Assembly: GCA_023511875.1 (NCBI GenBank)
Contig: JAIMAQ010000002.1
Span: 1 to 64,000 of the forward strand
DNA: 64,000 nt
Reading direction: 5' to 3'
Origin: Thermoflavifilum sp.
GTDB taxonomy: Bacteria; Bacteroidota; Bacteroidia; Chitinophagales; Chitinophagaceae
Numbering within the stretch: the stretch's first letter is position 1; the number at the start of each line of letters is the position of its first letter. The translations under genes were made by a program, and so were the position numbers. This document shows positions 51,731 to 59,948 of this stretch, piece after piece. The notes below the pieces were generated by a model. The model had not been told where the DNA came from. It worked only from the letters and a program-made list of their open reading frames with translations, and ran no database searches.

Positions 51731-52234
51731 CTATTCTTTGTCATTTCTCCCGGCGATAACCGATTCATTGGGCTCAATCTGTACGCTGCGGCTAAAGCTT
51801 TCTTCTAAGGAAATAAAAGTTTCTGTGCGTTCTATACCCTTTACTTTTTGTAATTCGTCGTGCAAAACTCTTCTGAGTTGTTGAATATCGCGGCAGACTA
51901 CTTCTGCAAAGATGCTGTAATTGCCCGTAGTGTAGTTGACCCGTACGATTTCTGGTATGCGGCGTAATTCCTTAACTACACTGTCGTACAGGGAACTTTT
52001 TTCCAGGTAGATACCCACAAAAGCCGTAACATCATAACCTATTTTTTTAAGATCTACTTGCAGTCGGGTACCTTTGACGATGCCCAATTCCTGGAGTTTT
52101 TTCATGCGAACATGAATGGTGCCGCCCGAGACAAAGAGCTTTTTGCCCAGATCGGCATATGAAATGCCCGCATCGTTCATCATTTCATTAATGATTTTCA
52201 AGTCGAGTTTGTCAATATTCAATGAGCTGGCCAT
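51731..52234 (-). CDS. Lrp/AsnC family transcriptional regulator
   Basis: LDLKIINEMMNDAGISYADLGKKLFVSGGTIHVRMKKLQELGIVKGTRLQVD. Confidence 0.94.
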   Translation of the reverse strand: MASSLNIDKLDLKIINEMMNDAGISYADLGKKLFVSGGTIHVRMKKLQELGIVKGTRLQVDLKKIGYDVTAFVGIYLEKSSLYDSVVKELRRIPEIVRVNYTTGNYSIFAEVVCRDIQQLRRVLHDELQKVKGIERTETFISLEESFSRSVQIEPNESVIAGRNDKE

Positions 52235-52317
52235 TTTAAAAAATTGTTTTAGATAATAGTTAAAATTTGATTGTTATTTTAAATAAAATCAATAATATCA
52301 AAAAATACATTAAAAAA

Positions 52318-52349
52318 TTTGCAACAAAACAGGATTATGCTTAGATTTG
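52318..52349 (+). promoter_or_regulatory. Promoter of the tRNA-like RNA
   Basis: TTTG (52318-52321)-N20-TAGATTTG (52342-52349), exact Bacteroidetes consensus form. Confidence 0.65.
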
Positions 52350-52367
52350 CACTAGTTCTTTCTACAA

Positions 52368-52531
52368 TGTAGAGTGATGAAACTGGCAGACATGCCCTCT
52401 TGTCTCGGGGGTGGGGATCACAGGACAAACCCGGCATAATGCTGGCCGCAAGGCCGGCATGGGGTTGACCACTAAGCTTCTTCTGTGCCGGCGCTAACTG
52501 CCCCGTGGAGGTTCGAATCCTCCCTCTACAG
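52368..52531 (+). ncRNA. tRNA-like RNA (class II/Leu-like cloverleaf ends) with about 95 nt between anticodon arm and T-arm
   Basis: TGTAGAG/CTCTACA acceptor; ATG-AAACTGGCAGA-CAT D-arm; CCCTC-TTGTCTC-GGGGG anticodon arm; GGAGG-TTCGAAT-CCTCC T-arm; own promoter and terminator. Confidence 0.75.
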
Positions 52532-52542
52532 CTTCGTACTTC

Positions 52543-52570
52543 AAGCCACTGCGCCAGCAGTGGCTTTTTT
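52543..52570 (+). terminator. Intrinsic terminator of the tRNA-like RNA
   Basis: AAGCCACTGC-GCCA-GCAGTGGCTTTTTT. Confidence 0.88.
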
Positions 52571-52785
52571 ATTGCAACAACAGCTAGAGGATTACCCATC
52601 TCAACCTCCAACGTTTGATGTAAATATAATTTGCTTAGTGGGAATTTCATATACATTAAAACTTGTATTTTATTCGTTTACCAGATAAATTATTTCATTC
52701 GCTGTTTTTCACGGCATGAAAATACAAAGGCGATTTATAATTTGAATAGGTTTTTCATAGGATATGGTTAAGTTATTTGAGCAGA

Positions 52786-58511: not shown

Positions 58512-59948
58512 TTAGAAGGAAATATTTTTAGGTGTGCGGGGGAAGGGAATCACGTCGCGGATATTGGTCATACCTGTTACAAATTGTACCATTCGTTCAA
58601 AGCCCAATCCAAATCCTGAATGTGGGCAACCGCCAAATTTGCGACTATCTAAATACCAATACAATTCATTTGGGGAGATATGTAATTCTTGCATGCGGTG
58701 CAATAGGCGATCATAGCGCTCTTCACGTTGTGAGCCACCAACAATTTCGCCAATACCTGGAAACAAAATATCCATTGCCCGTACAGTTTTGCCATCATCA
58801 TTCTGGCGCATGTAAAAAGCTTTGATTTCTTTTGGGTAATCGGTAATGATTACGGGCTTTTGAAAATGTTTTTCTACCAAATATCTTTCGTGTTCACTCT
58901 GAAAATCCATGCCCCAGCGTTCTACGGGAAATTGAAATTTTTTCTTTTTGTTGTATGGACTATTTTTTAAAATTTCAAATGCTTCGGTATATGTAATCCG
59001 TTCGAATGGGTGTGCAATAACAAAATGCAGTTTTTCTAACAAATTCATGCCCGATCGTTCTGTTTGGGGCTTTTTGCTTTCTTCTTCTTGAAGTCGATTA
59101 GCGAGCCATTCGAGATCGGTAGGATGATGATCCAATACATATTGAATGATGTATTTGATAAACTCTTCAGCCAGGTTCATATTATCGTGTAGGTCATAAA
59201 AAGCCATTTCGGGTTCTATCATCCAGAATTCAGCCAAATGGCGGGTAGTATTGGAGTTTTCAGCACGAAAAGTAGGCCCGAAAGTATAAATCAAGCCCAA
59301 GGCCATGGCCCCCAATTCACCCTCCAGTTGCCCAGATACCGTAAGGTTGGCTTTTCGTCCAAAAAAATCCTGGGAATAATCTATTTCACCATTTTCAGTA
59401 CGTGGGAGTTGCTTTAAATCGAGTGTAGTTACCTGAAACAGTTCGCCGGCACCCTCAGCATCGTTGGCCGTGAGGATGGGGGTATGCAGGTAAATAAATC
59501 CCTTTTGGTGAAAAAAATGATGGATAGCATAAGCCAGGCTATGACGAATGCGAAATACCGCGCCAAAGGTTTGCGTACGCATGCGCAGATGAGCATGCTC
59601 TCGCAAAAATTCCAAGCTATGTTTTTTGGGTTGCAGGGGATAAGTTTCCGCAGGGCAATCGCCCAGTATGTCAATGTGTTGAGCCTTCAGCTCCAGTTTT
59701 TGTCCGCGCCCAATAGATGCTACCAACTCACCTTGTGCTGCAATTGCTGCTCCTGTAGTGATGCGTTTCAATAGAGCAGGGTCGTATTGTTGAGGGTCTA
59801 TTACCACCTGTAGGTTTTCATGGCAAGAACCATCGTTTACCGCAATAAACTGATCATTGCGAAAGCTACGCACCCAGCCTTTAATGGTCAATGAAGGCTT
59901 GGGGGGCTCCATGAGCAATACTTCCCGAATTCGAATATGTTGTGGCAT
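58512..59948 (-). CDS. asnS: Asparaginyl-tRNA synthetase
   Basis: [82 protein letters not shown]. Confidence 0.96.

Follow-up and report, generated by a model that had tools for sequence, protein, structure and literature searches.

The window, a stretch of 64,000 nucleotides from the Bacteroidota bacterium Thermoflavifilum sp., carries a gene for a tRNA-like RNA on its forward strand at positions 52368–52531. The 164-nt RNA, a length that includes the discriminator G73 (52531), has homologues in other genomes and scores 119.2 bits against core covariance model R1. Its acceptor stem begins with the strand TGTAGAG (52368–52374) and pairs perfectly over 7 bp with positions 52524–52530, thereby forming U1:A72 and G2:C71, two pairs that are invariant among the homologues. 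There follow a D arm that resembles that of tRNA-Leu (52377–52393), with G18 G19 and with A at position 20a rather than the antideterminant U20a, and an anticodon arm (52395–52411) in which a 5-bp stem closes the 7-nt loop UUGUCUC (52400–52406). In this loop, G34, U35 and C36 occupy positions 52402–52404, U37 is position 52405 and C38 is position 52406. The T arm, GGAGG-TTCGAAT-CCTCC (52507–52523), is evident both from the sequence and from the consensus structure. Thus, the acceptor, D, anticodon and T arms of a canonical tRNA are all present, as are the elbow elements G18G19 and TTCGANN. Upstream lies a promoter-like pair of the Bacteroidota type, TTG-N20-TAGATTTG (52319–52349, forward strand), and downstream a terminator-like 10-bp hairpin followed by T6 (52543–52570, forward strand). 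An earlier note on this DNA had proposed the same four arms, promoter and terminator, and all are confirmed from the sequence. A 125-aa open reading frame runs antisense to the RNA (52279–52656, reverse strand) and bears no sign of being a gene.

The RNA belongs to a sizeable family. The core covariance model, which comprises 117 positions and 32 pairs, was used to search 395 genomes from the class and 297 from the phylum, and its scores are bimodal: members reach 63–125 bits, whereas ordinary class II tRNAs (76–87 nt) reach at most 58 bits, and members are further set apart by their length and conserved variable arm. Our collection comprises 104 copies at about 80 loci of Bacteroidota, and a further 31 on phage contigs. 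The RNAs range from 107 to 210 nt and include a short form (roughly 107–130 nt) and a long form (roughly 135–195 nt), which sometimes lie side by side. Carriers include Chitinophaga, Dyadobacter, Cyclobacterium, Fulvivirga, Flammeovirga, Saprospiraceae and others; the named carriers that a pattern search picked out are members of the Chitinophagaceae or of other Chitinophagales and Cytophagales. A BLASTN search with the stretch, a check that the earlier note had suggested, recovered homologues in most family members at 70–86% identity, some of them in tandem. In Flammeovirga pacifica (L273, 3798–4614), for example, five copies of the anticodon-arm pattern recur evenly every 197 bp as a tandem RNA array.

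Signals around the gene recur in the family as well. Within 100 nt upstream of the RNA, 44% of the 104 copies show the arrangement TTG-N17–23-TANNNTTG, compared with 1.5% of shuffled sequences, and a run of T5 lies within 90 nt downstream of the RNA in 74% of copies. The nucleotide after G73 is C in all 104, as it is (C74, position 52532 in the window) at most tRNA genes of the window genome.

The most distinctive part of the RNA is a giant variable arm (52413–52504, forward strand), which is supported by covariation in both the core and the full-length alignments. Its outer helix, GGGG/CCCC (52413–52416/52501–52504), is joined through an asymmetric bulge to a helix CAG/CTG (52421–52423/52498–52500), beyond which come a conserved internal loop, GACAAA (52424–52429)/CTAA (52494–52497), and an inner helix (52430–52436/52486–52493). 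In the full-length alignment, 98.4% of the cells of the consensus structure are paired, compared with 44–57% in controls in which the alignment was slid; the covariation score is 0.296 (0.07–0.10 for the slid controls) and 15 consensus pairs have changed on both sides. The core alignment agrees, and together with the model score these values lie well outside what chance would give. Specifically, GGGG/CCCC covaries across the family to GAGG/CCTC, GGAG/CTCC and GAAG/CTTC, and CAG/CTG covaries to CGG/CCG and TGG/CCA, whereas the internal loop keeps the form GGAYAAA/CTAA with a variable inner helix beyond it. The earlier note was therefore right to see a giant structured variable region, and its outer GGGG/CCCC helix stands. 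Two further helices that it drew by eye, CACAGGA/TTCTGTG and AACCC/GGGTT, find no support; the compensatory changes that it had proposed to look for do exist among homologues, although they fall in the consensus helices. A hairpin capped by GCAA (52439–52460, forward strand), also read by eye, is specific to the lineage, and the same pairs are not conserved in relatives. In the test of these by-eye helices, 65% of cells are paired, and pairs with double changes do no better than shuffles.

Long forms also share the conserved and presumably single-stranded segment GGGGTTGACCAC (52461–52472, forward strand), whose motif T[TC]GACCAC recurs in 44 of the 58 long copies from bacteria and in 30 of the 31 from phages. 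Within this segment, GAC is complementary to the GUC anticodon, and an intramolecular contact is possible. A likeness of the GCUAA internal loop to tetraloop receptors was considered and dropped because no conserved GNRA partner exists. The D loop of some copies contains further hairpins, such as GGCGTAAGCC (L028:1515–1724, L019:1515–1692 and L367:1468–1626), and in the first of these another hairpin separates the variable stem from the conserved internal loop.

The RNA is a member of a new and widespread family that lies outside all RNA families tested. A search of Rfam, again suggested by the earlier note, gave no match at the gathering threshold, tmRNA, tRNA-Sec and introns included, and at E ≤ 10 only chance matches. 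The canonical tRNA model (RF00005) misses it at its gathering score, and ARAGORN calls neither the RNA in the window nor any in 30 homologous loci. No description of such an RNA was found in the open-access literature searched. The earlier note had judged the RNA to be tRNA-like and yet not tmRNA, tRNA-Sec or a group I intron, which holds. Like tmRNA, it is tRNA-derived and is predicted to be a stable RNA that uses a synthetase and does not decode as a tRNA does. Unlike tmRNA, it keeps an anticodon arm and has no tag reading frame and no alanine G3:U70, and neither Rfam nor ARAGORN finds a tmRNA with a tag peptide here; phages that have the RNA carry tmRNA separately. A tRNA-Sec is rejected for want of a UCA anticodon and of an Rfam tRNA-Sec match, and a group I or II intron within a tRNA because Rfam finds no intron and the insertion falls inside a covarying variable arm.

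Among the tRNAs of the window genome, the body of the RNA is closest in sequence to tRNA-Leu(UAG). It shares the D arm and the variable-arm geometry of this class II tRNA, from which it differs by G73 in place of A73, by U1, by the GUC anticodon loop and by the elaboration of the variable arm. Given this body, G73, U1 and the GUC loop seem to have been acquired and not inherited.

The features that look acquired are those by which enzymes would recognize the RNA. Bacterial aspartate identity rests on G73, G34, U35, C36 and C38, with G2-C71 and G1-C72 (PMC9976931), and amidation of Asp-tRNA by the amidotransferase GatCAB requires U1-A72, whereas G1-C72 and U20a act as antideterminants (PMC9976931; PMC4206432). 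In the RNA family, U1:A72, G2:C71 and G73 are each found in 104 of 104 copies, as are U35, C36 and A at position 20a; G34, and with it the complete anticodon GUC, occurs in 101 of 104 and C38 in 102 of 104. The full aspartate set (G34 U35 C36, C38, G73 and G2:C71) is present in 97 of 101 distinct sequences. Judged by these elements, the RNA matches what aspartyl-tRNA synthetase (AspRS) reads except for G1-C72, and the pair that stands in its place is the one that GatCAB needs. The absence of G1:C72, which is helpful to the AspRS of Escherichia coli, can be understood from this requirement for U1:A72. In every copy, the elements sought by GatCAB are thus present and both antideterminants absent.

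In contrast, features expected of a decoding tRNA are not maintained. U33 is found in 79 of 104 copies and lost in 25, and position 37 is a purine in only 8 of 104 and never A. The variable positions of the anticodon loop are 32, 33 and 37, none of which belongs to the published aspartate identity set. Four divergent copies have altered loops (L155, TCGTCTA; L142, CGTTCTA; L123, CTTTCTC; L149, CTCTCTC), in which GUC or C38 is imperfect, and may be decaying or specialized; they count against the proposed charging. The window genome has a separate, normal tRNA-Asp (GUC), which begins with G1, and decoding therefore does not depend on the RNA; tRNA-Asn and both tRNA-Gln of this genome begin with U1. 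Compared with tRNA-Asp, the RNA therefore shares the bacterial determinants and differs in having U1:A72 for G1:C72, no U20a, a Leu-like class II body, no A37 and a length of 107–210 nt.

These observations make it very improbable that the RNA is a decoding tRNA of odd structure, be it an extra tRNA-Asp or a tRNA that recodes aspartate to asparagine. Its cloverleaf is complete and its anticodon is GUC, but such a role fits poorly with a normal tRNA-Asp in the same genome, with the loss of U33 in 25 of 104 copies and of A37 in all, with the giant arm and with the harm expected from asparagine at aspartate codons.

The gene next to the RNA also points to asparagine. A regulator of the Lrp/AsnC family (51731–52234, reverse strand; Pfam AsnC_trans_reg) is transcribed divergently, 134 bp away. 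Its closest solved relative is E. coli AsnC (2CG4, 119 bits; next 75 bits), and among NCBIfam models it scores highest with AsnC (162 bits; next model 68); as this falls short of the equivalog cut-off of 227 bits, we call the protein only AsnC-like. When proteins encoded within 5 kb of the RNA were clustered over about 80 loci, a regulator of this family was found beside the RNA in 57 loci, nearly always upstream and divergent at roughly 90–440 bp, whereas the next cluster appears in 11. The gene trmB, downstream of the RNA in the window and named in the earlier note as a neighbour to look for, is present in only 7 loci and is rejected as a conserved neighbour. An AsnC-like orthologue scoring 160 bits or more is present in 39 of 39 genomes that carry the RNA compared with 5 of 30 that do not. 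The window also encodes asparaginyl-tRNA synthetase (asnS, 58515–59894, reverse strand; TIGR00457, 585 bits) about 6 kb from the RNA; asnS is near the RNA in a congener (G001) too, and this is not a general linkage.

The 39 genomes with the RNA and 30 without were hand-chosen from the model lists before the following genes were examined. GatB (TIGR00133) occurs in 39 of 39 genomes with the RNA and in 12 of 30 without (P = 5 × 10⁻⁹), where this and the next P value carry no correction for phylogeny and the 69 genomes are not phylogenetically independent. Asparaginyl-tRNA synthetase (AsnRS, TIGR00457) is found in 69 of 69. Among genomes that also have glutaminyl-tRNA synthetase (GlnRS, TIGR00440), GatB is present in 26 of 26 with the RNA and in 1 of 19 without (Fisher P = 1 × 10⁻¹¹). 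The absence of GlnRS can therefore be rejected as the reason for GatCAB in these 26, where it has no canonical task because GlnRS and AsnRS are both present. The sole exception without the RNA (G071) carries a 1,106-aa frame (L318:3804–7124) in which GatB and a bacterial AspRS are joined; a GatA-like frame lies immediately upstream. The arrangement suggests conversion of aspartate to asparagine by other means, possibly through a one-chain transamidation enzyme.

AsnB of the E. coli type shows the opposite distribution. It is found in none of 39 genomes with the RNA and in 11 of 30 without, and every genome that has it lacks GatB; AsnA occurs in 2 of 39 and 4 of 30, respectively. Contrasts are also seen within single families. 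In one (f61), four genomes with the RNA have GatB and lack both AsnB and AsnA, whereas three without it lack GatB and have AsnB, two of them with AsnA in addition; in another (f1), two genomes tested that lack the RNA also lack GatB and the AsnC-like gene. Both cases argue against mere shared ancestry. The broader model TIGR01536, which covers all AsnB-like proteins, is above its cut-off in 63 of 69 genomes. Most genomes with the RNA have such paralogues, those listed being mostly 590–670 aa, and one of these could be a true asparagine synthetase. Five genomes with the RNA (G356, G061, G419, G298 and G346) have neither a TIGR01536 protein over the cut-off nor AsnA.

Copies of the RNA are also carried by phages. 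The anticodon-arm pattern is present in 31 IMG/VR contigs of uncultivated phages (L352–L382), and every one of them is confirmed to hold the RNA by the covariance model, at 73–111 bits. The GUC anticodon and C38 are present in 31 of 31, and U1, G2, C71, A72 and G73 in each of the 30 that are complete at the 3′ end. In nine contigs, the RNA lies among tRNA genes, often with tmRNA too, and one contig (L376) encodes a phage portal protein and terminase. Among 50,697 annotated records of isolate phages, none matched two of the phage copies. No AsnC-like gene adjoins the array whose reading frames were read (L379).

From the family, its structure and conserved elements, its linkage to the AsnC-like gene and its co-occurrence with GatCAB, all of which are observed, we infer charging, amidation, asparagine release, AsnC control and exclusion from the ribosome as steps of one pathway. 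The RNA would be transcribed from the promoter divergent to the AsnC-like regulator, presumably asparagine-responsive and probably in control of it, and matured as tRNAs are. The ordinary AspRS of the cell would load it with aspartate by way of G34 U35 C36, C38, G73 and G2:C71, and GatCAB would amidate Asp-RNA to Asn-RNA, as U1:A72 and the lack of U20a would permit. The asparagine would then be released or handed over and could supply AsnRS and metabolism in cells without the usual asparagine synthetases, with the AsnC-like regulator adjusting the supply of the RNA. Asparagine on a GUC anticodon would misread aspartate codons, and the loss of U33 in many copies and of A37 in all, together with the giant variable arm, fits an RNA that is kept out of the ribosome. 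We thus favour, with a probability of about 0.6, the reading that this tRNA derivative does not decode and is dedicated to the RNA-dependent formation of asparagine. A more far-reaching proposal, a tRNA-derived metabolic cofactor that has left decoding and has no task but to carry a free amino acid through its formation and release, which is under AsnC-type control and which phages have borrowed, seems to us evenly balanced. The earlier note had left the choice between a non-canonical tRNA and a tRNA-derived regulatory RNA open-ended, and had missed the anticodon identity and the upstream regulator, on which the functional reading turns. Its tRNA-like character stands, and the identity elements, AsnC linkage and GatCAB co-occurrence narrow it to a probable substrate of AspRS and GatCAB tied to asparagine metabolism.

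This proposed role resembles that of tRNA-Asn in the indirect pathway of AspRS and GatCAB. Both have U1:A72 without G1:C72 or U20a, the RNA is likewise predicted to hold aspartate and then asparagine at its 3′ end, and it too accompanies GatCAB, usually where AsnA and AsnB of the E. coli type are missing. Unlike tRNA-Asn, the RNA has the anticodon GUC rather than GUU, a class II body with a giant variable arm and decoding features that are not conserved; it coexists with a normal tRNA-Asn and its gene is tied to AsnC.

The reading of dedicated asparagine formation leaves the conserved elements of the variable arm without explanation. By our own rough estimate, uncatalysed hydrolysis of the ester is probably too slow for the asparagine demand of a whole cell, so that release would call for a deacylase, for an acceptor or for some contribution of the variable arm, unless the RNA acts as a sensor instead. 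As a sensor, a reading that we regard as possible though considerably less probable, the RNA would be charged and amidated in the same way, and its Asp-, Asn- or uncharged state would report asparagine status without bulk supply. Receivers could be AsnC, GatCAB or target mRNAs contacted through the exposed GGGUUGACCAC. The divergent AsnC-like gene, the conservation of single-stranded GGGUUGACCAC and of the internal loop in the variable arm, and the lack of a known route for asparagine release all speak for such a sensor. However, the absence of AsnB of the E. coli type from genomes with the RNA suggests a need for synthesis, as do the five genomes without any AsnB-like protein over the cut-off; furthermore, GGGUUGACCAC is absent from short forms, and phage copies lie in tRNA and tmRNA arrays, with no AsnC-like gene by the one array noted above.

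A different use of the same enzymes has a lower probability still. As in Bdellovibrio, a non-discriminating AspRS could let GatCAB act on ordinary tRNA-Asn, with another role for the RNA in the same pathway. This route is open to bacteria that have AsnRS, GlnRS, GatCAB and a single AspRS (PMC4206432), and the U1 of tRNA-Asn in the window genome is compatible with it. We found one bacterial-type AspRS in each of 30 genomes tested, and their anticodon-binding domains show no obvious signature specific to genomes with the RNA, for which a special or second AspRS is thus rejected. Instead, these domains resemble those of close relatives that lack both the RNA and GatCAB (the motif RDLGG, for example, is shared by G436 and G419 with G201 and G099), and the AspRS of such relatives has to be discriminating. 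The resemblance counts against the use of ordinary tRNA-Asn and agrees with an RNA that uses the aspartate anticodon GUC, not GUU. Nor would that route give a reason for AspRS and GatCAB elements to be kept in the RNA itself, or account for the gain and loss of the RNA and GatB together.

Equally improbable as a decoding role is a decoy function, in which the RNA would imitate a tRNA to soak up toxins or anticodon nucleases, or would titrate AspRS, and would be no substrate of GatCAB: the phage tRNA and tmRNA arrays and the conserved anticodon arm would suit it, yet it predicts neither the invariant U1:A72 nor the coupling to GatCAB and AsnC, and the RNA is chromosomal and lineage-wide.

To our knowledge, tRNA-dependent amino acid synthesis occurs only on tRNAs that then decode. 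If asparagine is indeed formed on the RNA described here, the reading would answer, for a large part of the Bacteroidota, what GatCAB is for in bacteria that also have AsnRS and GlnRS, and would explain the source of asparagine in organisms without AsnA or AsnB as well as the presence of such an RNA in phages. The culturable genera Chitinophaga, Dyadobacter and Flammeovirga allow a direct test. If true, the family would represent a previously unknown class of metabolic RNA and illustrate the recruitment of tRNAs to serve as cofactors.
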